Source of the DNA: Candidatus Scalindua japonica | Lineage (GTDB): Bacteria > Planctomycetota > Brocadiia > Brocadiales > Scalinduaceae | Assembly: GCF_002443295.1 (NCBI RefSeq) | Contig: NZ_BAOS01000001.1 | Coordinates: forward strand, 186,001 to 250,000 | Direction of reading: 5' to 3' | DNA: 64,000 nucleotides | In this document: positions 14,479-34,063 of the stretch, in pieces | Numbering within the stretch: the first letter of the stretch is position 1 | Layout: each line of letters starts with the position of its first letter | Translations under genes and position numbers: made by a program | The notes under the pieces: generated by a model | Seen by the model: the letters and a program-made list of their open reading frames with translations, nothing else | The model's database searches: none | What the model was told of the DNA's origin: nothing

Positions 14479-16398
14479 ATGAAAAAGAATTTGAGTCCTT
14501 ACTATTTGATTAATACTATGTTTAAGTTTAATAAAAAATTCATAGATCCTGAAAACAGTGACAGGCAAAATAAAATCCCACTGATCGCCATCAGCATTTT
14601 GATCGTTCTGATTATAGGGATTATAATTATTACAAAGTTCCAGTTAAAACAGGAAGAAAAGGAGAAACGGACAGGAGTGCTTAATAACAGCCTCCAACTG
14701 ATAAATCTTATTTCAATGTACCCAATCAAAGATTTTGAAACTGACAAGCGGGATCTCTTCTTCAAAACACTCATAAACAATTCTTTAAATTCAGGTCTTT
14801 TATACTGCTACGCTCACGACCTTACAGGAAAGGTTATCGCTTCATTTACTATGAGTGATTCAGTAAAAGATTCACCTTGGGAGATCCAGAGGAGCTCACT
14901 ATTTTCGATGTGGTTGACGAAACAGACCTTCAATGAGCCTGGTACAGGAAAAGCGATTTATGAGTATGCTAAACCTGTCTTTGAGAATAACCAGAAGACC
15001 GGGACGGTAAGGATAGGATTTCAAGTCCCTGAAATAGTGGTTTTCAAAGGAGAACGGTTAAGTCATTTGTCTATGATAGTTTTTCTTATACTCGCTACCA
15101 TTATTCTTTTCTATTATGGTGTCCTCATCGTCATAAAACCTCTTCAAAAAATCATGAAAAACAGTAAAAAAATCATCCATTCGTCAGTACCGGAAAGCAA
15201 TAACGGAGGACAAGGCACAAATATTGTAAATATCATTGGAGAGCTTAATAAATCATTTTCAAACATTCAAGACAGGATAACCAGGATCGAATCAGAAAAC
15301 ATTGAATTGAGCACAAAAATGGGGGCTATCTCTTTTGAGAAAGATCAAATTATTAATCTCCTGAATTCTTTGAGCTTCGGAATAATAACCACCGACCTGC
15401 ATGACAATATTAACTATATAAATGATTATATAAGTAACCTGATAGGCAGGCAATTGAAAGACGTGCTTGATCAACCGTTTGATCAGATAATCGAGAATGA
15501 TGATATTGCATTGAGCATTTTGCAATTTGAACAGATAGAAACTGCCGGAAATGGTAAGAATATTGAAACAACCTTCCCAAACTTTTCTCCCGGAGAAACT
15601 TTTGGAGTCTCCCTGTATAACCTTACTGATAAGTCAGGGGAGTCTATAGGCAAGATGATCCTGGTCAAAAATATCACTTTCCAGAAAATGGGAGAAAAAA
15701 CCCAGCAGGAATTTATCTCACATGTATCACATGAACTTCTGACCCCTTTAACGACAATTAAATCATACAATGAGATGTTAATGGATGGTGAAATAGACAA
15801 GGAAGAGATGCAGAAAGAGTTCTACAACACCATAAGTGAGGAAACATCACGTTTAACCCGCCTTATTCAGAATCTTTTGAATATCTCAAGAATAGAAACA
15901 GGTGAATTAGTAATAAACAGAGATTTTGTCAGAACTGAATTACTTTTTGAAGATTGTGCTGCTGCCATTAATGCTTCCGCTCTTAATAAAAACATAAGCT
16001 TTCAAAAATTATTACCAGACACATTTCCATCACTGAACGGTGATAAAGAACTACTCAAGGTATCGATTAACAATATCTTGAATAACGCGGTAAAATATAC
16101 TCCTGAAGGAGGCAGAATCTCATTTTCACTCTACGAGTACAACAACACTGTGACATTTGAGGTAATCAATACAGGTGGCGGCATTTCTAAAAATGATATA
16201 CCCCGCATTTTTGATAAATCCTATCGTTCCGATGACAAACATGTTTCAGAGCAGTACGGGTCAGGGTTAGGTCTTGCAATAACATCTGAGATTATCAATC
16301 TCCATGGAGGAGAAGTTGAAGTACAAAGTGAGCCAGGAAAGGAAACCTGTTTTAAGATAAACATTCCGAAGGGAGAATATTACCTTGAAGATAAATAA
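14479..16398 (+). CDS. Membrane sensor histidine kinase with PAS domain
   Basis: 639 residues. Transmembrane helices at about 33-53 and 197-217 bracket a periplasmic sensor region of roughly 140 residues. A PAS-like domain (about 290-400) precedes a HisKA box SHVSHELLTPL with phospho-acceptor H418. The ATPase domain has the N box NNILNNAVKYTPEGG, G1 box GGGISKNDIPRIF and G2 box GSGLGLAI. The 3' end overlaps the next response regulator by 14 bases, so the two are translationally coupled partners. The start is uncertain: neither ATG 14479 nor ATG 14518 has a good ribosome site. It begins an overlapping run of genes ending in the STAS-GspE ATPase, indicating control of the secretion or pilus machine. 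Confidence 0.88.
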   Translation: MKKNLSPYYLINTMFKFNKKFIDPENSDRQNKIPLIAISILIVLIIGIIIITKFQLKQEEKEKRTGVLNNSLQLINLISMYPIKDFETDKRDLFFKTLINNSLNSGLLYCYAHDLTGKVIASFTMSDSVKDSPWEIQRSSLFSMWLTKQTFNEPGTGKAIYEYAKPVFENNQKTGTVRIGFQVPEIVVFKGERLSHLSMIVFLILATIILFYYGVLIVIKPLQKIMKNSKKIIHSSVPESNNGGQGTNIVNIIGELNKSFSNIQDRITRIESENIELSTKMGAISFEKDQIINLLNSLSFGIITTDLHDNINYINDYISNLIGRQLKDVLDQPFDQIIENDDIALSILQFEQIETAGNGKNIETTFPNFSPGETFGVSLYNLTDKSGESIGKMILVKNITFQKMGEKTQQEFISHVSHELLTPLTTIKSYNEMLMDGEIDKEEMQKEFYNTISEETSRLTRLIQNLLNISRIETGELVINRDFVRTELLFEDCAAAINASALNKNISFQKLLPDTFPSLNGDKELLKVSINNILNNAVKYTPEGGRISFSLYEYNNTVTFEVINTGGGISKNDIPRIFDKSYRSDDKHVSEQYGSGLGLAITSEIINLHGGEVEVQSEPGKETCFKINIPKGEYYLEDK

Positions 16399-16765
16399 AA
16401 CCATTCTGGTCATTGATGATGACTCCCATATAAGGAGGGTTATTGAGCTTAAGTTGAGAAAGGCCGGATATGAGGTAATAATTGCCGAGAATGGAGAATC
16501 AGGGATTCAGATCTGTAATACCAGGTTGCCGGATGCTGTCATCACAGACGTTGTAATGCCAAAAATGGACGGTAAAGCAGTCCTTAGAAGAACTAAGGAA
16601 TTAAAAAAGGAATATTCTTTCCTGACCATTATTATAAGCTGCTCGATAGGTTTTGAGGAGCATCACTGGATAAAAGATATACCCGACACTCATTTTATGG
16701 AAAAACCGTTTAGTCTTAATAAAGTATTGGATTGTGTTGATCAATACTTCGGAATTAAAAGATGA
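16385..16765 (+). CDS. Single-domain response regulator (receiver only)
   Basis: 126 residues, from a TTG start inside the end of the kinase gene. Acidic pocket DDD at 11-13, phospho-acceptor D55 in VITDVVMPKMDG and the conserved lysine in FMEKPFS are all present. There is no DNA-binding or enzymatic output domain, so it should act by protein contact, as CheY-like regulators do. It overlaps the kinase by 14 bases and the following HD-GYP gene by 4 (ATGA), so its likely partners are the kinase upstream and the HD-GYP protein or ATPase downstream. Confidence 0.88.
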   Translation: MKINKTILVIDDDSHIRRVIELKLRKAGYEVIIAENGESGIQICNTRLPDAVITDVVMPKMDGKAVLRRTKELKKEYSFLTIIISCSIGFEEHHWIKDIPDTHFMEKPFSLNKVLDCVDQYFGIKR

Positions 16766-18321
16766 TTATGCACATTGAATATTTTCAGGAACTATTCTGC
16801 GGCTTAACTCAAATCAGCCCGTTAAACTTTGAGGTCTGGAATGGTGACGGTCCGGTGTTCTCTTCAAGATTTGACGGCGCAGACACAACCATCAGCAGCC
16901 AGATAGAAGAGTTTTCTGATAGTGTCATGAGCCAGGGGGTATTCCGTCATACTTCTATGAACGGCTGGAAAGCGGTATTTGGTGTTCCCATTAGAAACAA
17001 TGAGCAGACAGTCGGGTGTCTGCTTGCCTACAGCAAAAATTCAAATAAAAATCTCATACCTGATGAAAGTGCTTACGCGGAAATTCCTGATGTTAAAGGG
17101 GTCGAAATGTTTCTTACCCGCCTGGTATCATTTATAGAAGATAAATGGGAAGGTGAGCAGGAAAAAGAGAAGATTACTGAAGAACTTGGCCGGAGTTTCG
17201 AAGATCTATATCTCTATTCCCAGGTTGCAAACCAGATAAAAACGTTATTGTCCTCCAATCAAATGAACAACGATCTGGTTTTAGATACCATGAAAACAAT
17301 GCGGGTAGACATCTCCTTCGTCAATTTATTTAACCATGAAGGAAGTAAAATAGCCTTTAATGAAGATAGTTTATACCTGCAATTTTCTGGCATTGCGGAA
17401 AAATTTGTAGGAAAGCTTATAAGAACTCTTACTGTTCAAGAGAAAGTAGAAAAGAGAACACATTTTACTATTCATGATTCCAGGACAGACAGTCAATTCA
17501 GCAAATTGTTTATTGCTCAATACCGTTTACTTGCAGTAAAGATCACACATGACAACAAATTTTACGGGTGGTTGGGACTGATTTCATTTAATCTTAAAGA
17601 ATCTTTCAGAAGAAGCGAATTGAGGCTCTTGATTTCTATGGCTGAGCAGCTTGCCATGTTGATAACCAATACTGACCTGTACAAAGAATTAGAAGGATTT
17701 GTTATCAATTTGATTAAGTCAATGGTCTGTGCTATTGAAGCGAAAGATGTATATACCAGCGGCCACTCTGAACGAGTCAGTGAATTATGCTTGAATATGG
17801 CAGAATATATGGATCTGACAGAAGATGATAAAAAGAACCTGAAATGGGCCGCCATCCTGCATGATGTCGGGAAAATAGGTGTGCCTGAATCTATTCTGTG
17901 TAAAGAAGGGCCTCTGGAAGATGATGAGTATCGTAAAATTAAAGAACACCCAAAAAGAGGGTTTGAGATCCTTAAACATATTAAGCAACTGGTGCCTATA
18001 ACCCCCAGTATTTTACATCATCATGAGCGCTATGATGGAAAGGGATATCCTGACGGGCTGAAAGGTGATGAAATCCCATTATATGCACGCATTATTGCTA
18101 TTATTGACACATACGATGCTATAACTTCACGGCGGTCTTACCGGTCGGCAAAATCTTCGGAGGAAGCTATGTCAATTATTGAAAAGGTTGCCGGCACACA
18201 ATTAGACCCGAATCTGGTTTTAATATTCAAAGAGGTATACAGGGACTCAATCGTTGTAAAAAAAGATGAGCAAATCTCTGGGAAGGAGAAAGCAAGATGG
18301 CAATGTCAGCAATTAACATAA
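16762..18321 (+). CDS. GAF-HD-GYP protein, probable c-di-GMP phosphodiesterase
   Basis: 519 residues. The first 100 residues resemble a small ligand-sensing domain that I cannot name with certainty. A GAF-like region follows at about 150-305. The C-terminal HD-GYP domain (about 315-500) has GHSERV, LHDVGKIG (the HD pair) and HHERYDGKGYPDG (the GYP signature), all metal and nucleotide residues apparently intact. Enzymes of this class hydrolyse c-di-GMP to GMP via pGpG in the cytoplasm. The start ATG overlaps the receiver gene stop, and its own end overlaps the STAS-GspE ATPase by 25 bases. The ATPase contains a putative c-di-GMP-binding MshEN domain, so enzyme and effector are encoded together. 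Confidence 0.9.
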   Translation: MIMHIEYFQELFCGLTQISPLNFEVWNGDGPVFSSRFDGADTTISSQIEEFSDSVMSQGVFRHTSMNGWKAVFGVPIRNNEQTVGCLLAYSKNSNKNLIPDESAYAEIPDVKGVEMFLTRLVSFIEDKWEGEQEKEKITEELGRSFEDLYLYSQVANQIKTLLSSNQMNNDLVLDTMKTMRVDISFVNLFNHEGSKIAFNEDSLYLQFSGIAEKFVGKLIRTLTVQEKVEKRTHFTIHDSRTDSQFSKLFIAQYRLLAVKITHDNKFYGWLGLISFNLKESFRRSELRLLISMAEQLAMLITNTDLYKELEGFVINLIKSMVCAIEAKDVYTSGHSERVSELCLNMAEYMDLTEDDKKNLKWAAILHDVGKIGVPESILCKEGPLEDDEYRKIKEHPKRGFEILKHIKQLVPITPSILHHHERYDGKGYPDGLKGDEIPLYARIIAIIDTYDAITSRRSYRSAKSSEEAMSIIEKVAGTQLDPNLVLIFKEVYRDSIVVKKDEQISGKEKARWQCQQLT

Positions 18322-20339
18322 CTAAAATTGGTACAAATACCGTCCTGACTCCAAGAGCTTCATTATCGCATAAGAATTATGAGGATCTTGATACGCTATT
18401 CAAAGATTGTATCAGCCACCAGAAAACGCAGATTATTCTGGACTGCAAAGCGGTGTCATTCATCGACAGTGAAATACTTGGCCTTATGGTCAAGACGCAT
18501 GAAGCGCTTTCAATGCAGGAGAGAATGTTGAAAATAATTAACCTGGTTGAGATATGCCGGGACATACTGACGATAACACGGCTCATAAAGATTTTTCACG
18601 TTTACAAAAACATCAATGACGCACTTAAAAACGTACCATTAAAAGATGATAATTTAATACCAAAAAGAAGAAAACTTGGCGAAATTATGGTCAACCAGGG
18701 GCGTATTACTCCTGATGAGCTAAACGTCTATCTCGCCACACAAAAGGAAACCTGCAAACCAATTGGAAAATTATTTATTGAAAATAATATCATTACGGAA
18801 GAAGAGATGATCCGTATTCTCGGAGAACAGCATGGGATCCCAAAAGTCTGGCTGAGGAAAGGGCTGGTAGACGGAAGGATTGTGAATGTTTTATCTAAGG
18901 AAAAGGCGCTGCGTTATAAAGTAATCCCCATTTTTAAGGTTAACAATATCCTGACACTTGCCACGTCAGATCCAAACGCTATCTTTGTGTTTGACGAAAT
19001 AGCAAAAATTACTAACCTGGTAGTCCAGCCCGTTCTCTGCCGTACTGATGACATTCTTGATATTATCGAAGAATACTACAAAGAGGGGGGTCATACAGAT
19101 GTCAATGATATCCACCTTGACGATAATCTTGAGCTTGTTGAAACTGCAACTGAAGAAGAGATAAATGAATTAGCACAAATGGCTGAAGATAGCCCGATAG
19201 TTAATCTGACCAACAAAATTCTTCTCAAGGCTATCAGAGATGGTGCGAGCGATATACATTTTGAGCCGCAGCGGAACAAATTCCGCATACTGGTCAGGAT
19301 TGACGGAATATTGTATGACTTTATGTCCCCTAAAATAGAGATTCATCCGTCTCTTGTCTCAAGGTTAAAGATTATGGCAGGTCTTGATATCTCTGAAAGG
19401 CGCATGCCCCAAGACGGCCGTATCCAGGTACGGACAGATGGCAGGACCGTAGATCTCAGGTTTGGATCAATGCCGAGCATTCATGGCGAAAAAGTTGTTT
19501 TGAGGGTGCTGGATAAGAGTAATGCCATCCTTGACCTCAATAAGCTTGGGTTTAAAAATGTAATACTGGACCAGTTTAAATCGATCCTCAGAAAACCCCA
19601 TGGGCTCATTCTGGTCTGCGGTCCTACCGGCAGTGGAAAGACAACCACCCTCTATTCCGCTATAACAATGCTCAACTGCATGGAAAAAAATGTTATAACC
19701 ATTGAAGATCCGGTTGAATATCAGTTGGATGACATCAACCAGAACCAGATCAAGGATTCCATAGGTCTCAACTTTGCCAAGTTTCTGAAACATGCTCTCC
19801 GTCAGGACCCTGATATTATACTGGTGGGAGAAATCAGGGACCGTGAAACAGCTGAAATTGCGATCCAGGCTTCACTGACCGGCCATCTTGTTCTTTCGTC
19901 GCTTCATACGAACGACAGCCCCAGCGCCATTACCCGACTCCTGGAAATGGGAGTTGAACCATACCTCATCTCTTCCGCCCTGCTGGGTTGTCAGGCACAA
20001 CGTCTCGTCCGGACAATCTGTCCGGACTGTAAGACAAGCTACTTCCCCTCAAAGGCAGAATTGCAGGAACTTGGATTTGACAATGATACAACAATCCGGT
20101 TGTACAAAGGCAAAGGGTGTTCTTCCTGTTATGACTCAGGTTTCAAAGGACGTTTCGGGCTCTATGAACTCCTGCCTTTAGACGAAGAGCTCCAATCGGT
20201 AATACTGGAAAATCCGAATGCAACCGCTATAAAAAAACATATTAGCGGAAATGGTCATCAGAGATTGAGAGAGCTTGGATATGAGAAGGTAATTGAGGGT
20301 TTAACCACCATAGAAGAGGTAAGGCGGATCGCGATTTGA
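18297..20339 (+). CDS. gspE: STAS-MshEN-GspE/PilB assembly ATPase fusion
   Basis: 680 residues, ATG with GGAAGGAG at 18281-18288. Residues 1-113 form a STAS-like domain: strand QIILDCKAVSFIDSE, with D57-S58 aligned to the phosphorylatable Asp-Ser of anti-sigma-factor antagonists. Residues 123-183 match the duplicated MshEN motif (KLGEIMVNQGRITPDEL and PIGKLFIENNIITEEEM, each followed by a Q), a c-di-GMP-binding module in MshE-type ATPases. The rest is the secretion ATPase: Walker A GPTGSGKTT 442-450, Asp box TIEDPVEYQ, Walker B LVGEIRD, His box LHTND, and zinc cysteines C575, C578, C608 and C611. It powers pseudopilin assembly from the cytoplasmic face. An N-terminal STAS is unusual for this family. 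Gene gspF follows after 47 bases. Confidence 0.93.
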   Translation: MAMSAINITKIGTNTVLTPRASLSHKNYEDLDTLFKDCISHQKTQIILDCKAVSFIDSEILGLMVKTHEALSMQERMLKIINLVEICRDILTITRLIKIFHVYKNINDALKNVPLKDDNLIPKRRKLGEIMVNQGRITPDELNVYLATQKETCKPIGKLFIENNIITEEEMIRILGEQHGIPKVWLRKGLVDGRIVNVLSKEKALRYKVIPIFKVNNILTLATSDPNAIFVFDEIAKITNLVVQPVLCRTDDILDIIEEYYKEGGHTDVNDIHLDDNLELVETATEEEINELAQMAEDSPIVNLTNKILLKAIRDGASDIHFEPQRNKFRILVRIDGILYDFMSPKIEIHPSLVSRLKIMAGLDISERRMPQDGRIQVRTDGRTVDLRFGSMPSIHGEKVVLRVLDKSNAILDLNKLGFKNVILDQFKSILRKPHGLILVCGPTGSGKTTTLYSAITMLNCMEKNVITIEDPVEYQLDDINQNQIKDSIGLNFAKFLKHALRQDPDIILVGEIRDRETAEIAIQASLTGHLVLSSLHTNDSPSAITRLLEMGVEPYLISSALLGCQAQRLVRTICPDCKTSYFPSKAELQELGFDNDTTIRLYKGKGCSSCYDSGFKGRFGLYELLPLDEELQSVILENPNATAIKKHISGNGHQRLRELGYEKVIEGLTTIEEVRRIAI

Positions 20340-20386
20340 GAAATAGAGCAAATAATCAGAATAATTTATTCGGATGGTAAAAGACT

Positions 20387-21532
20387 ATGGCTTTATCGTT
20401 AAGTAACAATTATAAAGATAGCGCGTCAATACATCTTAAGAAAGAGTCTCGCGTTAAATCGATATCCCTGAACGATATTTTCAGCAGAATTGGCAAACCT
20501 GTCAAGTCAGCCGAACTTATGTTTTTCTGTTCGCATCTGTCCCTGATGTTTGAAATTAAAACTCCTTTGAACCAGGCGCTTAAAACGATAGAGAACCAGA
20601 CTCAAAATGCGGCTTTTAAGAAAGTGATACAATCCATGACTAAAGATGTTGAGGAAGGGCGGCAGCTTTCTGACGCTATGAAACGACATCCACGGTTTTT
20701 CAATACAATGTTCACAAGCATGGTTAAAGCCGGAGAGAACGGCGGTTTTCTCCATGTTGTTCTGGAGAAAATCGTTGAAATGCAGGAAAAACGTCAACGG
20801 CTTATATCACAGATAAAGTCCGCGTTAACCTATCCCGCTTTCCTCTGTATTTTAGGTTTTCTCGCGATAATTTTTATCATGGTCAGCGTGTTGCCAAAGT
20901 TTACCGGATTATTTGAAGGAAAGGAGAGTGTCTTACCGTTCACGACTCTCTGTTTGATGAATGGAAGCTCTTTTTTGCGAAGCTATTGGTGGTTGTGTAT
21001 TTTATCCTGCGGCGGCCTGCTGACAGGTATAAAAATCTTCAAAGACAGTAAGCATGGAAAGGCCCTTATCGAATGGTTTCTTGTAAGCGGCCCATTAGTA
21101 TCCAATTTGTGTACAAAGATTTATACCAATGAACTGCTTCGAATACTGGGAAACTTGATAGAAAGCAAGGTCTCATTTATAGAAGCGCTTGAAGTGACAC
21201 GCGGTACTATTCGAAACAGCTATTTCAGAGATTTTATCGATAAAACCATAAAACATATGGAGAATGGAGGAAAATTCTCAGATCAATTTGTACATTTTCC
21301 CTACATCATGGAGTCCGTTAAACAGATGGTGGTAACAGGAGAGGATACCGGCAACTTGTCGACAGCTATGCTGAGGTTGAACAAACACTACGATTTAGAA
21401 ATTGAACAGGACCTTAAGAAGTTGACAGCCCTGATAGAACCGGCAGCACTGGTAGTAATGGGAGCGGTTATCGGAATTATCGTTTCTTCCATAATCCTTC
21501 CAATGTTTAAGCTGTCACAGGTAATAGGTTAG
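20387..21532 (+). CDS. gspF: GspF/PilC-type inner-membrane platform protein
   Basis: 381 residues, the usual length for GspF/PilC after a 35-residue extension. Two cytoplasmic T2SF domains (about 40-160 and 250-350), each with a G-x-F/L-s pattern (VEEGRQLSDAM; MENGGKFSDQF), are separated by a membrane hairpin (about 145-170 and 200-220). A final helix at 355-378 (VVMGAVIGIIVSSIILPMF) is the family's most conserved membrane segment. The protein anchors the assembly ATPase to the pseudopilus. It lies 47 bases after gspE and ends the first block of the locus; a 409-base gap follows. Confidence 0.93.
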   Translation: MALSLSNNYKDSASIHLKKESRVKSISLNDIFSRIGKPVKSAELMFFCSHLSLMFEIKTPLNQALKTIENQTQNAAFKKVIQSMTKDVEEGRQLSDAMKRHPRFFNTMFTSMVKAGENGGFLHVVLEKIVEMQEKRQRLISQIKSALTYPAFLCILGFLAIIFIMVSVLPKFTGLFEGKESVLPFTTLCLMNGSSFLRSYWWLCILSCGGLLTGIKIFKDSKHGKALIEWFLVSGPLVSNLCTKIYTNELLRILGNLIESKVSFIEALEVTRGTIRNSYFRDFIDKTIKHMENGGKFSDQFVHFPYIMESVKQMVVTGEDTGNLSTAMLRLNKHYDLEIEQDLKKLTALIEPAALVVMGAVIGIIVSSIILPMFKLSQVIG

Positions 21533-21720
21533 TGTCTGTGCAGAAACCAGAGAACATTGTATAAAAAATCAACAAAAAGCAGGTGGCACAATCAGGCGGT
21601 ATGTTTTACATCGTCCATTCTTACCTATTATTATTGATAACTATAAAGTATTGAAATGTAAAGATATGTCAACACAATGGTTATACTCTGGTCCGTGATG
21701 TTATAAATATATGTAGAGCT

Positions 21721-21737
21721 TTGGCATTTCATTTGCT
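21721..21737 (+). promoter_or_regulatory. Candidate sigma-54 (-24/-12) promoter for the major pseudopilin
   Basis: TTGGCATTTCATTTGCT has the invariant GG (21723-21724) and GC (21735-21736) exactly ten bases apart, and matches the TGGCAC-N5-TTGCT consensus at all but one core position. It lies about 205 bases upstream of the pseudopilin start, leaving room for a leader. Sigma-54 promoters drive major pilin genes in several bacteria. No enhancer-binding activator is encoded in this window. The rest of the 409-base gap (21533-21941) shows nothing else I can name. Confidence 0.5.
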
Positions 21738-21941
21738 AGTTCTCTTCCAGATAATAAGCTGATTTCTAAAAACAATTTCGCATATTTTTTTTCTAATCTT
21801 TAGAAAAAAACTACCGATAAGTAAGTAAGAAGTGAATAAGATATTATTACCAGAACTGAGTAGATCCTGATTAAATAATGGGAAAATTGCCAGGTGATTT
21901 TGAGTAAAGACTTTTATTTTTTTTTATTAAGGAGGATAAAT

Positions 21942-22472
21942 ATGAAGAGGGGAGAATTAAGTAAAAAGAATGGTTTTACCCTGATAGAAATGCTTATTGT
22001 GGTAATAGTACTCGGTATATTATCAGCGATTATTATTCCACAGATTGCCGTTTCTACAGATGATGCCAAGCTTAACACGCTGGAGACCAATCTGACTGGA
22101 TGTCGTAAGGCAATTGAGCTCTACTATTATGAGCATGGTTCCACCTATCCCGGAGACGCTGTACCTACAACGAAGCCGATAGATGTTACTGACACGACTG
22201 AAGCCTTTGTCGCTCAGCTTGTACGATATACGGATGCGGCTGGTAACATAGCAAATGCAAAAACTGCTGTGTATAAGTATGGACCATATATTAAGAATGG
22301 TAAATTGCCGACAAATCCATACAATGACAAATTTGATGTTGTTGTTGACAATACTGAAACTGACATTACGGTAAGAGACTCATCAGCGTCTGATAACGGC
22401 TGGCTGTTCTATTCGAAGACAGGTGTTTTTATTGCGGCTGACGGAACTGCCGGTATTCACGACAATCTGTAA
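21942..22472 (+). CDS. gspG: Major pseudopilin, GspG-like
   Basis: The start is the ATG at 21942 behind TAAGGAGG (21928-21935). An upstream in-frame GTG would place that ribosome site inside the gene. The 176-residue product has a basic leader ending in KKNG, then FTLIEMLIVVIVLGILSAII, the class III signal cut by prepilin peptidase between G and F with Glu+5 present. The body contains a helix (LNTLETNLTGCRKAIELYYY) and a C-terminal sheet region (NGWLFYSKTGVF) as in GspG/PulG-type proteins. A candidate sigma-54 promoter lies upstream and a hairpin terminator downstream, so it is probably transcribed alone and at a high level, as suits the main fibre subunit. The required prepilin peptidase is not in the window. 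Confidence 0.9.
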   Translation: MKRGELSKKNGFTLIEMLIVVIVLGILSAIIIPQIAVSTDDAKLNTLETNLTGCRKAIELYYYEHGSTYPGDAVPTTKPIDVTDTTEAFVAQLVRYTDAAGNIANAKTAVYKYGPYIKNGKLPTNPYNDKFDVVVDNTETDITVRDSSASDNGWLFYSKTGVFIAADGTAGIHDNL

Positions 22473-22540
22473 AACCCATTTATCCTCCTGACAACATATG
22501 AAAGACGAACTCCTTGATAAGCATTAATTAATCGTCTGAT

Positions 22541-22571
22541 AAGCCGTCAGCGTAAAGCTGGCGGCTTTAAA
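22541..22571 (+). terminator. Stem-loop terminator after the major pseudopilin gene
   Basis: An 11-bp stem (AAGCCGTCAGC / GCTGGCGGCTT, one T-G wobble) with a five-base loop (GTAAA), starting 69 bases after the pseudopilin stop, followed by a short T/A run. It would uncouple the abundant GspG-like subunit from the minor pseudopilins. Confidence 0.6.
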
Positions 22572-23148
22572 TAGATTAGAATGAAGAGAATTCGATTATA
22601 CCGGCAATGCCCACCCTACAACTACAAGCCTGAACCAGCATTAAATAGTTTTGCATTATTTGACTCTGGTTGTTTTTTTATTTTTTCTTTGCGTTCTGCC
22701 TGCCCGGCCAGCCATTCGCCCGCCCGGCAAGGCTGTTCTGGTGAGGACGGGGACGGCTCCGGCTCCTTGCCCGACGTCTTCTTTGGCGGGTGCGTGATAA
22801 ATTATAATATGCCTGTTTGGAGAAACGGGTCCTACATATTTAATTAATGAGGAAAAAATTACCCCTTTGTTGAATAAATCACCATAACATTTCAAACCAT
22901 ACCATACCCATCAGACAAGAACCACGCAACATATCATATAACAAGGGTTTACGCTTCTTTGTGCAAAATACATTATTTGGTATAAATCTTGCAATTGTAA
23001 TAAGTATAAGCAGGAATGTAGTTACATAGCGATAATAAACTCTCTCCCCCCCGGGGGAGAAGGCAGGGAGAGGAGGGGCAAGTCGAAGTGTTGTCGACAT
23101 TCAAATGTACATTTAATTATTTTGTTCATAACACTAAAATAACAATCT
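22572..23148. repeat. Gap with degenerate REP/family B fragments
   Basis: This 577-base gap contains a CCCACCCTAC half-hairpin at about 22611-22620 and a GC-rich CTGCCTGCCCGGCC...GAGGACGGGGACGG stretch (about 22697-22760) that resembles the middle of the family B repeat at 10890-10980. Further along, 23041-23080 holds a short C-run/G-run hairpin (TCTCCCCC / GGGGGAGA). ORFs across it are low-complexity and I do not consider them genes. Confidence 0.5.
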
Positions 23149-23733
23149 ATGAAACGATGGATGAAAAGACAATTTTGTGACATAACGGTAACTTCCAGGC
23201 GGTCTGCAGGTTTTACGCTTATTGAAATGTTGATTGTAGTGATGCTTATGGGGATCACAGCAGCGATCAGTCTTCCCGCGATACACTCAACACTTACAGA
23301 AAACCGGCTTAAAGGTGCTGCTTATGAAGTCGTCACCGCACTGGAATACGCGCAGCTGACCGCTATGTCCTCCGGCAGAGGAACACGAGTGGTTATCGTG
23401 GAAAATCAAGAGCGTATTGGAGTAAGGCAGTACACATCAAATGCCGACTTTTTTACTGGTGGTGACGAACTGGCTGAAAATGATGTGGAAAATGGGTCGT
23501 ATGTATTAATGCCATACCCTACTAAAAAAGGAATAAATTACCCCATTCTGCTGACGGATGAAAATCGCTTTAGCGGCGTTGACATCACCGTATCAGACTT
23601 TAATGCAGGCAGTCAGGTAGACTTCAACGCACAGGGAGCACCGACGAAAGGAGGCTCTGTCACACTTGCTTTAGGAGGTGAACAGATAGTCGTAACCCTC
23701 GACGCACTGACCGGAAAGGTCACGGTGAATTAG
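23149..23733 (+). CDS. Minor pseudopilin, GspH/FimT-like
   Basis: 194 residues with a long basic leader ending in RRSAG, then FTLIEMLIVVMLMGITAAISLP, a class III prepilin signal with Glu+5. The adjoining sequence (NRLKGAAYEVVTALEYAQLTAMSSGRG) is typical of GspH/FimT, which keep an 'A...R..A...A' helix after the transmembrane segment. Minor pseudopilins prime and cap the pseudopilus in the inner membrane. The TAG stop is immediately followed by REP sequence, and the next pseudopilin gene is 2.4 kb away, beyond a transposase duplication and a toxin-antitoxin pair, so the ancestral operon appears split here. No clear ribosome site precedes the ATG. Confidence 0.85.
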   Translation: MKRWMKRQFCDITVTSRRSAGFTLIEMLIVVMLMGITAAISLPAIHSTLTENRLKGAAYEVVTALEYAQLTAMSSGRGTRVVIVENQERIGVRQYTSNADFFTGGDELAENDVENGSYVLMPYPTKKGINYPILLTDENRFSGVDITVSDFNAGSQVDFNAQGAPTKGGSVTLALGGEQIVVTLDALTGKVTVN

Positions 23734-23920: not shown

Positions 23921-24469
23921 ATGTCGAATTACCGGCGTGCTAATGCAAAAGGAGGCACATATTTTTTTACTGTTGTGACGTATCGGCGACAAGAATTCTT
24001 ATGCGATGAAAATGTTCGAACGGCGTTGCGTGACGGTATTCGTGATGTGCAAACACAACATCCACTGATCATTGACGGTTGGGTTTTGTTGCCGGATCAC
24101 CTTCATTGTATATGGACGCTGCCGGAGGACGATTCAAACTTTGGTGTTCGCTGGGCTATGATAAAACGTTTCATAACAAAACAATGTGGTCCGGACTTAC
24201 GCCGTGATGATTGGATGAATGCATCAAAACGGAAACGAAATGAATCCACAATTTGGCAAAGGAGATTCTGGGAGCATATGATCCGTGATGAAGATGATTA
24301 TAATAGACATATGAATTATATACATTATAACCCGGTGAAGCATGGTTTGGTATCAAGTGTTAATGATTGGCCATATTCCACGTTTCACAGGTGTGTGAAG
24401 AAAGGACTATATCCACCGGATTGGGGTGGAGACGGAACAGATACAAACGAAGCGAGTTATGGTGAATGA
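23921..24469 (+). CDS. REP-associated tyrosine transposase (RAYT, Y1/IS200-like), copy 1
   Basis: 182 residues. The HUH motif is H60-L-H62 (LPDHLHCIW), and the likely nucleophile is a tyrosine in the C-terminal helix around [17 protein letters not shown]. These single-strand endonuclease-like transposases cut at REP hairpins, and the gene here is flanked by REP hairpins on both sides, with GGTGCGTACAACGCACC ending 32 bases before its ATG. The frame is intact. It differs from copy 2 at seven residues. RAYTs are usually single-copy, domesticated genes, so an intact tandem pair is notable. A GCAGGCAATGCCTGCC palindrome lies about 40 bases after the stop (24508-24523). Confidence 0.92.
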
Positions 24470-24730: not shown

Positions 24731-25279
24731 ATGTCGAATTACCGGCGTGCTAATGCAAAAGGAGGCACATATTTTTTTACTGTTGTGACGTATCGGCGAC
24801 AAGAATTCTTATGCGATGAAAATGTTCGAACGGCGTTGCGTGACGGTATTCGTGATGTGCAAACAAAACATCCACTGATCATTGATGGTTGGGTTTTGTT
24901 GCCGGATCACCTTCATTGTATATGGACGCTGCCGGAGGACGATTCAAACTTTGGTGTTCGCTGGGCTATGATAAAACGTTTCATAACAAAACGATGTGGT
25001 CCGGACTTACGCCGTGATGATTGGATGAATGCATCAAAACGGAAACGAAATGAATCCACGATTTGGCAAAGGAGATTCTGGGAGCATATGATCCGTAATG
25101 AAGATGATTATAATAGACATATGAATTATATACATTATAACCCGGTGAAGCATGGTTTGGTAACAAGTGTTAAGGATTGGCCATATTCCACGTTTCACAG
25201 GTGTGTGAAGAAAGGACTATATCTACCGGATTGGGGTGGAGACGGAACAGATGCAAACGAAGCGAGTTATGGTGAATGA
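24731..25279 (+). CDS. REP-associated tyrosine transposase (RAYT, Y1/IS200-like), copy 2
   Basis: 182 residues, 175 identical to copy 1. The substitutions are Q to K, Q to R, D to N, S to T, N to K, P to L and T to A, none in the HUH or NPVKHGL segments, so both proteins should be active if either is. Upstream REP hairpins (GGTGCATTCCATGCACC at about 24597-24613 and GGTGCGTACAACGCACC at 24682-24698) and the downstream GCAGGCAATGCCTGCC palindrome (25318-25333) are duplicated with the gene. The unit ends at the 3' end of brnA. Low divergence points to a recent duplication. Confidence 0.92.
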   Translation: MSNYRRANAKGGTYFFTVVTYRRQEFLCDENVRTALRDGIRDVQTKHPLIIDGWVLLPDHLHCIWTLPEDDSNFGVRWAMIKRFITKRCGPDLRRDDWMNASKRKRNESTIWQRRFWEHMIRNEDDYNRHMNYIHYNPVKHGLVTSVKDWPYSTFHRCVKKGLYLPDWGGDGTDANEASYGE

Positions 25280-26161: not shown

Positions 26162-26590
26162 ATGTCTTTGAAAAAACAATTTAATCAAATAGAAAAATTA
26201 AAAGCCTCTTTCGGCTTTACCCTGGTAGAAGTTATATTTTCCGTAGTCATTTTAGGGCTCATCTCCGCGGGGGTTGCCTACCCGTACATGATAGGTATGA
26301 AGTCCATCAACGCGAAGGAGGATCGTATGCTTCTCGACAGCGCGCTCCGCAGCCGGATGGAAATACTTATAAGTACCGACTTTGGCGCACTCAGCGATAG
26401 TTCTGAGGTAGTTAATATTAATGGACAGAATTATACTATTACCTGGACGGTGGTGAACATGGATATGGACGGGGACGCTGTACCGGAGACGAATGCAAAA
26501 CTGGTTGTTGTATCGGTAACGGAAGTGCCCGGACGTTCTCTGACAACCATCATCGTAGATAATGAAGGCAGAATAGGTAAGATATCATGA
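26162..26590 (+). CDS. Minor pseudopilin, GspI/PilV-like
   Basis: 142 residues. The prepilin signal FGFTLVEVIFSVVILGLISAG has Glu+5, preceded by a basic leader. The short body (EDRMLLDSALRSRMEILIS, then a small sheet domain) fits GspI or PilV, minor subunits that nucleate the pseudopilus tip with GspJ and GspK. GGAG lies about eight bases before the ATG. Its stop overlaps the start of the GspJ-like gene (ATGA), so the two are coupled. Its predecessor in the cluster is the GspH-like gene beyond the RAYT/BrnTA insertion. Confidence 0.82.
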   Translation: MSLKKQFNQIEKLKASFGFTLVEVIFSVVILGLISAGVAYPYMIGMKSINAKEDRMLLDSALRSRMEILISTDFGALSDSSEVVNINGQNYTITWTVVNMDMDGDAVPETNAKLVVVSVTEVPGRSLTTIIVDNEGRIGKIS

Positions 26591-27471
26591 GGGCCACTGA
26601 CGAAAAAGGTTTTACGCTTATTGAATTGGTCCTGGCTATCACCATTATGGGAATCATTGCCGGGACAACAGTAACCCTCCTTTCCGCAAACCTCAAGGCA
26701 CACAATATCGCTTCTGACAGGTCCGGCCTGCACCAGGAAGGCCTCCTGACCATGGAACGTATGACAAACGGACTCAGGAAAACAACGGTTGTCGCAGTCC
26801 CTAATGGTCACAGTTACACAAGAGACATCCTGGCCTTTTCCCGTCTGGTCAACAGCGACAATGACTTCTACTTCGGAGACCCACTATTTCCGCGTATTGA
26901 TGAAGACCTCAGTGACGATTATTCATGGTGCGGAAACGGCATCTTGGGTGTTGATGAAGACGATGATGGTCAGATTGATGAAGGTGATTGGAGAGATGAG
27001 GATGAAGATGGTTTATATAATGAAGATCCACTTGATGGATTGGACAACGATGGAGACGGTTCTATCGATGAGGGGACGATGCCTGATAGTAATAATGACG
27101 GTAAGAACGGTATTATTATGATCGATGATGACGGTGATGGAACGGTAGACGAGCAACAGGGTGATAATGTAAATGATGATGATGAAGACGGAGCTACTAA
27201 CGAGGAGGATATACTTTTCGTAGTGTACGTGTATAATTCTGCTACTAATACCCTGACTGAAATACATTCTGACCCTGATAGCGGCATAAACAGCCCTGCG
27301 CCTCAAATAGTCTTGTCGACACAGGTCACCAATTTCCAGGCCATATACAAATCACCGGGGTTAATTGAGATTATTCTCCAGCTCACCGGAGAAGATGGTA
27401 AGGTCATAGATTTTGATGAACATGTATATGTCAGAAACGTACTTCAGAAAAACGGTAAAAGGGTGAGATAA
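26587..27471 (+). CDS. Minor pseudopilin, GspJ-like, with inserted Asp-rich calcium-loop repeats
   Basis: 294 residues. The N terminus KGFTLIELVLAITIMGIIAG is a clear prepilin signal with Glu+5, and the following helix with RMTNGLRK fits GspJ/PilW-type proteins. Residues about 105-210 are an acidic insertion with repeated D-x-D-x-D-G loops (DEDDDGQIDEG, DEDEDG, LDNDGDGSIDEG, DDDGDGTVDEQ, DDDEDG), like thrombospondin type-3 or EF-hand calcium loops. The C terminus returns to a normal pseudopilin sheet. Calcium stabilises several known pseudopilins, but a tandem loop array inside one is not usual. It shares an ATGA overlap with the GspI-like gene. Confidence 0.85.
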   Translation: MRATDEKGFTLIELVLAITIMGIIAGTTVTLLSANLKAHNIASDRSGLHQEGLLTMERMTNGLRKTTVVAVPNGHSYTRDILAFSRLVNSDNDFYFGDPLFPRIDEDLSDDYSWCGNGILGVDEDDDGQIDEGDWRDEDEDGLYNEDPLDGLDNDGDGSIDEGTMPDSNNDGKNGIIMIDDDGDGTVDEQQGDNVNDDDEDGATNEEDILFVVYVYNSATNTLTEIHSDPDSGINSPAPQIVLSTQVTNFQAIYKSPGLIEIILQLTGEDGKVIDFDEHVYVRNVLQKNGKRVR

Positions 27472-32012: not shown

Positions 32013-34063
32013 ACTTTCGCTATTCGCGACTAAATTTAAGGAATTTTGGAAAATTTTTGAGTTTACCAAAACGTAAGTCCATGTAAATAAAGGATCCAGC
32101 TTTTCAAGAAGTCCCAAAATAGGCCAAAACCCGTTGTAGTGTAGACCTACCCCCTTTTTTTCTTAATTCCTTTCTGCAATAATACCCTCATCATGTTTCT
32201 AAGATGCAACGAACGATTTAAAAATGGTAAGAACCATAGGTACTGGAACATAGTCGAAAACAAGCGAACAAGCTCTGGTCGTATTGTCCAACGCCAAGTT
32301 CTCTACCTTGGCGAAATAAGTGATAACCAACAAGACACATGGCGTAAAGCAATAGAGGTATTTGAAGACGGGCAAGAACAACCCAGGCAAATGCATCTTT
32401 TCCCTCAAGACACACTCTCTCCTTCACACAACGAAACTCAGAATGCGATACATGTAAAATTAAATGAATTACAAATTAAAAACCCTCGTCAGTGGGGAGC
32501 GTGCTGGTTGTTTTGTGAGCTATGGGATCTCTTAAAACTAGATCAGTTCTGGTCAGGCAAACTATTACCTGGTAGAAAAGGAACACGCTGGCTAAATGTT
32601 TTTAAGACACTCACTGCCTATCGATTAATAGACCCCGGAAGTGAGTGGCGTTTACATAGATTGTGGTATGAACAAAGTGCCATGGCAGATCTATTAGGCG
32701 AAGACTATGGTTTAGTCCAAAAGGATAAATTGTATCGTTGTCTCGACAAACTCGTTGAGCATAAAGAAGATCTTTTCTCATTTCTCAGGCAGAGATGGCA
32801 TAACATGTTCAATGCCAGGTTTGACATTTTACTTTATGATCTGACCAGTACATATTTTGAATGTGACCCACCTGGTGCAGGACTACGGAAGTTTGGATAT
32901 AGTAGAGATAAGAGGTCAGACTGCGTACAGGTAGTGATAGCTCTTATTGTAACTCCAGAGGGCTTCCCTTTGGCGTATGAAGTGATGCCAGGCAATACGA
33001 AAGACTCCAACACGCTTGAAATGTTTTTGCAAAAGGTTGAAGGGCAATATGGGAAATCAAATCGTACGTGGTTGATGGATAGAGGGATTCCAACGGATGA
33101 AACAATAGAGAAGATGAAAGGTTCAGAGTATCCGATAAAATATCTCATAGGTACTCCCAAGGGTAGATTGACCAAGCTTGAAAAAAAGTTTTTAGACAAA
33201 CCGTGGGAAGAAGTCCGAGACAAAGTAAAAGTAAAGTTACTCAAGGATGATGGAGATCTGTATGTATTGGTGGAGAGTGCAGACCGTGTAAACAAAGAGA
33301 GGGCTATGCGTAGACGTAGGCTAAGGAAACTATTGGAGAGGTTAAAGCAGTTGCAGGATCAGAGCAACAGCAGAGACAAATTGCTATTAAAGATAGGGGC
33401 GGCCAAGAAAGAAGCGGGACGAGCATACTCGTTGGTAAAGATCAATTTGCCTGATGCAAAGGAAGTAGTTAACAAAGAGACATTTACCTTCAGCTTGGAC
33501 AAAGACAAGCTTCGCAAAGTGATGAGAAAGGAAGGAAAGTATTTGCTTTGATCTAATTTGACGGCTACAGATCCTGGGCTACTTTGGAAGCAGTATATGT
33601 TATTGGGAGAAGTAGAGCAGGCGTTTAAAGAGATGAAAGGTGACTTGTTAATACGTCCAATTCATCATCAGAAAGACACAAGAATAGAGGCACATATTTT
33701 TGTTGCGTTTCAGGCCTATTGTTTAAATGTTACGCTTAAGCAGAGGTTAAAGTGGTTAGCTCCAGGACTAACACCAAGGGCCGTAATAGAAAAGTTTAAG
33801 AAGATGCAAATGCTTGATGTACATTTTCCGACTACTGATGGAAAACAGCTCGTATTGACTCGATATACACAACCTGAAAAGGAACACAAAATGTTACTGA
33901 GTCAAATGAAATTTAATTTGCCCAAACAACCACCACCGAAAATTACATCTAATTTGGAGGCTATCGTGAAGTAGAGAGATTGCAATTTGTAGTGTAGACT
34001 TTTAGGGTGTTTTTGTTGATTTATAAGGACTTAGATCGTCAAAATACCTCGAATAGCGAAAGT
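32013..34063 (+). mobile_element. IS1634-like insertion sequence, about 2.05 kb
   Basis: The ends are the perfect 14-bp inverted repeats ACTTTCGCTATTCG (32013-32026) and CGAATAGCGAAAGT (34050-34063). The interior is one transposase frame broken by a single stop codon. Both flanks are REP-like arrays, so the element landed in repeat DNA. No target-site duplication is obvious, which may mean later deletion at one flank. Confidence 0.8.
32193..33974 (+). pseudogene. IS1634-like DDE transposase, interrupted by an in-frame TGA
   Basis: Two pieces in the same frame (32193-33551, 452 residues; 33552-33974) are separated only by a TGA at 33549-33551. The junction reads KYLL-stop-SNLTATDP, where an arginine would fit the family pattern, so a CGA-to-TGA change is the simplest explanation. 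DDE residues are visible: Asp in LLYDLTSTYFE, Asp in WLMDRGIP and Glu in EVEQAFKEMKGDL, the last lying in the second piece. With catalysis split, the gene is inactive unless the stop is read through. The N-terminal part (GKNHRYWNIVENKRT, RQVLYLGEI) is characteristic of IS1634/IS4-superfamily transposases. The second piece would have no proper start (TTG at 33558). Confidence 0.82.

Follow-up and report, generated by a model that had tools for sequence, protein, structure and literature searches.

RpoN-dependent control of pilin genes is best known from Proteobacteria and Geobacter, and the control of pilA in Pseudomonas aeruginosa involves RpoN. Sigma-54 promoters follow the consensus TGGCAY-N5-TTGCW, in which the GG of the -24 element and the GC of the -12 element stand 10 bases apart. 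In Geobacter sulfurreducens, an RpoN-dependent promoter of pilA was identified by 5'-RACE and the gene is described as lying directly 3' of pilR (PMC2725144), and the major pilin gene pilA of P. aeruginosa is described as being under two-component PilS-PilR control (PMC6058289).

Here we describe a pilin gene of Candidatus Scalindua japonica that lies in a 64-kb stretch of DNA (C1:186001-250000; referred to as the window, whose numbering is used below unless a contig is named). As in G. sulfurreducens pilA, as far as the account of that gene goes, the product is a major pilin and the gap 5' of the gene holds a -24/-12 element, but the window is without an activator gene, unlike the pilA neighborhood with its adjacent pilR. 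In contrast to P. aeruginosa pilA, the gene codes for a GspG-like pilin inside a pilB-pilC cluster (Table 1) and no PilS-PilR pair was identified. Our reading, to which we assign a probability of roughly three in four, is that the pilC-pilin gap carries a sigma-54 promoter and that pilin transcription is RpoN-dependent and activator-gated. That the promoter itself is genuine we consider very likely; it would be of a known kind, albeit in an unusual lineage, and a search of a limited literature collection found nothing that links anammox with type IV pili and sigma-54 or anammox with a pilin and RpoN.

Results

Table 1. Features of the pilin cluster, the pilC-pilin gap and the region downstream (window coordinates).
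Feature	Position	Strand	Remarks
Histidine kinase, upstream in cluster	14479-16398	+	
Stand-alone receiver protein	16385-16765	+	without sigma-54 activator domain
pilB-like ATPase	18297-20339	+	MshEN domain, N-terminal STAS fused
pilC/gspF-like inner membrane protein	20387-21532	+	
Intergenic stretch 5' of the core, expected activator-binding region	21533-21721	+	189 bp
Sigma-54 promoter core TGGCATTTCATTTGCT	21722-21737	+	-24/-12 consensus, all 11 informative positions match
Predicted 5' leader	21748-21941	+	194 nt
A/T hairpin in leader	21786-21810	+	11 bp, no T-run after it; -6.4 kcal/mol, z -4.6
Major (pseudo)pilin, GspG-like	21942-22472	+	176 aa; motif, profiles, structure comparison
Stem-loop 3' of pilin gene	22541-22567	+	11 perfect pairs, GC-rich stem
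Second -24/-12-like site TGGTATAAATCTTGCA	22978-22993	+	one deviation; 171 nt upstream of gspH-like gene
gspH-like minor pseudopilin	23149-23733	+	
Prepilin-type protein, probably minor pilin	26162-26590	+	
Prepilin-type protein, probably minor pilin	26587-27471	+	

The pilin ORF is preceded by a strong ribosome site (TTAAGGAGGATAAATATG) and its product carries a prepilin cleavage/methylation motif of the GFTLIE type. Its N-terminus is GspG-like, yet with TIGR01710 it stays below the cut-off (53.2 vs 88.85 bits). When the predicted structure (pLDDT 88.5, built from 23 sequences) was compared with 51 chains by VIA-align, the top six rows were GspG-type pseudopilins (Z 6.9 to 5.4; best row 3fu1_B with rmsd 2.8 over 92 residues) and type IV pilins scored Z 4.8 and less, all values lying under Z 8. 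A Foldseek search with the same model gave no match at E <=0.001 (best E 0.21), and when a sequence profile was run against the PDB the highest ranks went to a geopilin, the short pilin of Geobacter type, and to GspG, via the N-terminal part only. The closest structural neighbors are thus pseudopilins of type II secretion (GspG, PulG, EpsG), from which the sub-threshold profile score and modest Z values set it apart; major pseudopilin, as the first-pass annotation called it, is a fair name, while these values do not establish the protein as a GspG.

Between the end of the pilC-like gene and the pilin start lies the gap of 409 bp that had been reported there (21533-21941). It holds the anticipated GG-N10-GC in a good sigma-54 context: the element occupies 21723-21736 and its GC ends 206 bases from the pilin ATG (the first-pass annotation gave about 205), within a core, TGGCATTTCATTTGCT, that meets the TGGCAY-N5-TTGCW context with its 10-base spacing. 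Since bare GG-N10-GC is common in the window (362 matches vs 261 expected), the evidential weight is on the full 16-base pattern, of which the core is the sole exact match in the 64 kb. When the gap was dinucleotide-shuffled 20000 times, an exact match arose in 5 cases. Taking the usual promoter-to-start spacing, we presume that transcription starts at about 21748. A search for a paired activator site 5' of the core (21533-21721) returned short or weak repeats, none of them convincing. The first 143 nt of the predicted leader show no more structure than shuffles. A riboswitch in this long leader was considered and dropped: no Rfam family reached gathering scores across 12000-34000, and relaxing the search to E 5 over 21500-22700 added three weak, implausible matches. 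Nor is the gap a repeated or mobile element, as it is present once in the genome.

The proposal presupposes rpoN, and the genome has it (one match, 202 bits, in an open frame of 493 aa). Matches to the sigma-54 activator domain number 38, of which 24 are near full length (at least 164 of 168 model positions), and a GAFTGA or GSFTGA loop can be read in 22 of these 24. As regards the PilR/NtrC-type activator for which a scan had been suggested, none of the 38 matches falls in the window, no pilS-pilR pair lies beside the pilin gene and, with NCBIfam run on 10 of the 24, none scored above a curated cut-off, so that no PilR-type protein was identified. Elsewhere (G000:C44:10294-12471, L027-L030), part of an activator gene, interrupted by a TAG, occurs twice; the copies score equally and are spaced by 1679 bases.

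Genome-wide, the strict pattern occurs 16 times as against 5 for a reversed control, which means that, position aside, about 5 of the 16 could be due to chance. Of the 16, 13 lie outside ORFs of at least 100 aa (binomial ~1e-8), although such ORFs take up 85% of four sampled stretches and leave about 15%. Among the 15 sites other than ours, an ORF of at least 90 aa begins within 100 nt of seven, whereas the next ORF follows at 253 nt in one and at 305 to 513 nt in three. Among the genes 3' of strict sites are those for an HDOD protein, a cytochrome c, a response regulator, an ethylbenzene dehydrogenase-family protein and, with a score under its cut-off, an N-acyl amino acid synthase-like protein. 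One site (C5:155615; L040, L079) has a 16-base core identical to that of the window and precedes an operon for a TPR protein, a kinase, an activator and an flgC-like protein, names that come from reading the ORFs, with the activator domain alone scanned for. We considered the identical 16-mer as a sign of shared regulation and set this aside, as one shared five-base spacer among 16 sites may be chance.

Another strict site (C38:72714) lies 89 nt before a pilin gene that heads an MSHA-like operon (pilin, ATPase, PilC-like protein, second prepilin and secretin-like protein; the prepilin motif apart, these names were read from the ORFs). On this reading, the leading gene of the MSHA-like operon and the window's pilin gene each follow an exact match to the strict -24/-12 pattern, albeit with a different pilin, a different gene order and a site-to-start distance of 220 nt here vs 89 nt there. 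Prepilin genes follow 2 of the 13 intergenic strict sites (16 prepilin-motif genes listed; P ~0.001), or 1 of 12 (P ~0.04) without the site in the window, from which the idea of the test had come. Viewed from the 15 prepilin-motif genes that could be placed, the 350 bp upstream contain an exact site in two and a one-deviation site in one, and these three include the window's pilin and gspH-like genes.

For orthologs we searched PilC in 98 genomes, our own included, and besides the latter a single genome, Ca. Anammoxibacter (G019, record L082), was more than 50% identical (61%) among the matches listed; it is the nearest ortholog. With the pilin as query, 19 of 392 sampled genomes of the phylum matched at E 1e-20 and, our own genome apart, Ca. 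Anammoxibacter was again alone above 50% identity. No close PilC was found in 12 relatives of the same genus, several of which are incomplete (77% at lowest). The other close clusters are from Desulfobacterota, plus one genome that the tree tool labelled Myxococcota, and of 389 genomes sampled from the class to which G432, host of locus L087, belongs, 21 matched at E 1e-75, G432 included. A cluster that we read as kinase, receiver, HD-GYP, STAS, pilB, pilC and pilin is common to Planctomycetota and Desulfobacterota (14479-22472 in the window; L082-L087 and L112-L131). This cross-phylum sharing, together with the lack of a close PilC in the 12 same-genus relatives, may mean horizontal transfer. 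STAS and the PilB-like ATPase form a single ORF at 18297-20339 in the window and two overlapping ORFs in Ca. Anammoxibacter and several Desulfobacterota clusters. RpoN was found in all five ortholog host genomes searched, the L083 host not being among them.

Twenty-six ortholog loci were read and, with the window left out, 22 distinct pilC-pilin gaps were counted: L083, L119 and L131 were dropped because the contig or locus ends before the pilin and L113 because it belongs to the genome of L085, while L111 (the same as L087), L088 (24% identity), distant PilC matches and 17 distant genomes never entered. The scan kept GG and GC fixed and counted deviations elsewhere in the pattern. An exact site is present in 1 of the 22 gaps (L087), a result reached by 3 of 1000 shuffle sets. 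Allowing one deviation gives 3 of 22 (L084, L112 and the exact L087; shuffle mean 0.048) and allowing two gives 4 of 22 (L085 added; shuffle mean 0.33), neither being reached in 1000 sets. The remaining 18 gaps have no site at up to two deviations, among them that of Ca. Anammoxibacter (131 bp), which has no GG-N10-GC at all; on the opposite strand none of 23 gaps has a site at up to two deviations. The site in L084 fits the shorter, script-chosen pilin start only, since with the longer ORF its -12 element touches the start codon. In L086, a site straddles the pilC stop and was found with the scan extended 150 bp into pilC, a post hoc step made after the L086 sequence had been seen; this gives 4 of 22 at one deviation, where the remaining sequence of these loci would predict 0.2. 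The extended scan also finds two-deviation sites at the end of pilC in L112, L116 and L118. The sites in L084, L086 and L112 begin with A (AGGCAT), and as these loci form one clade (99/98) they are not independent. On the PilC tree, six rows labelled site-bearing (L085 and L086 included) require 3 changes vs a shuffled mean of 5.4, and 3 of 500 shuffles were as low. The distribution of the site is thus patchy yet clustered.

Discussion

In support of sigma-54 control of the pilin, as the first-pass annotation had it, we find rpoN, strict sites that are concentrated between genes, a second exact site before the MSHA-like pilin and sites in the equivalent gap of some orthologous clusters from another phylum. 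A sequence of events can be envisaged in which RpoN-RNA polymerase would be held in a closed complex at 21722-21737. To open it would take an enhancer-binding protein that attaches somewhere 5' of the core and has its gene in another part of the genome. Transcripts would then begin near 21748 and run through the 194-nt leader and the pilin gene, and the hairpin at 22541-22567 would either mark their 3' end or protect them. Given how good a sigma-54 promoter this is, the fibre is probably on only when a dedicated activator signals. This would extend RpoN-dependent pilin control to a Planctomycetota genome that shares its order with Ca. Anammoxibacter, and it suggests that a single cell has two fibres under activator-dependent switching. 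A wider scenario, which we regard as speculative and rather improbable, is that RpoN commands a surface-appendage regulon comprising the GspG-like fibre, the MSHA-like pilus and the flagellar-type kinase-activator operon with the identical 16-base core, and that the cluster, on its way from one phylum to another, either retained the site between pilC and pilin or gained it anew.

Several points speak against the sigma-54 reading, namely that the nearest ortholog has no GG-N10-GC and 18 of 22 ortholog gaps no site, that the leader is longer than many, and that there is neither a nearby activator gene nor a clear paired binding site. Instead, the housekeeping sigma factor might serve the pilin, with transcripts that either start within the gap or continue from pilC, and the -24/-12 match might be chance or a relic. 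The gap does hold sigma-70-like hexamers on the + strand (21605-21634 with 10/12 and 21651-21678 with 9/12), most orthologs do without the -24/-12 site and the terminator scan lists no + strand terminator between pilC and pilin, all of which would suit such transcription. Yet sigma-70-like matches are frequent in this AT-rich DNA (58 in 16 kb, both strands, vs 41.1 in shuffles, sd 6.8), whereas strict -24/-12 matches are much scarcer and turn up again in the corresponding gap of other lineages, so to our minds housekeeping transcription is quite unlikely.

Two further alternatives are compatible with the sigma-54 promoter and concern what lies behind it. The stem-loop after the pilin gene may act as a genuine intrinsic terminator and so set the pilin mRNA apart. 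It is real and very stable (a 51-nt stretch containing it folds at -23.3 kcal/mol, z -5.9, with none of 200 shuffles as stable), it is the only AAGCCG-N6-16-CGGCTT match in the window, the next gene follows the pilin at 676 bp and a comparable hairpin lies 152 nt 3' of the Ca. Anammoxibacter pilin. But its tail, TAAATAGATT, has no T-run, in neither genome do more than three T in a row follow the hairpin, the terminator scan did not call it, and 13 of 22 orthologs, two of which offered only 98 and 261 nt, have no stem within limits in up to 300 nt after the pilin. The stem-loop of the "own terminator" claimed by the first-pass annotation thus stands while its terminator function is in doubt: without a T-run it is perhaps a 3' end or a stabilizer of the mRNA rather than a canonical terminator, and we see the chances of intrinsic termination as somewhat short of even. 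The idea that the pilin is controlled separately from the rest of the cluster is less well supported too: a weaker -24/-12-like site precedes the gspH-like gene, and with it pilin control need not be separate. There may even be two RpoN-dependent units, starting from the sites at 21722 and 22978 and covering the pilin and the minor-pilin part. While TGGTATAAATCTTGCA retains GG, GC, TTGC and W, sites with one mismatch occur often (6 in the window vs 4.8 expected) and the matching gap of Ca. Anammoxibacter has three deviations at best, making two such units doubtful. With either alternative, the sigma-54 promoter ahead of the pilin would keep its role.

The minor pilin genes are also interrupted by two near-identical ORFs (23921-24469 and 24731-25279). 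NCBIfam identifies the first as a REP-associated tyrosine transposase, and palindromes such as GGTGCATTCCATGC recur around both. Further downstream, 32193-33974 comprises an IS1634-type transposase ORF followed by a second ORF that is perhaps its remainder.
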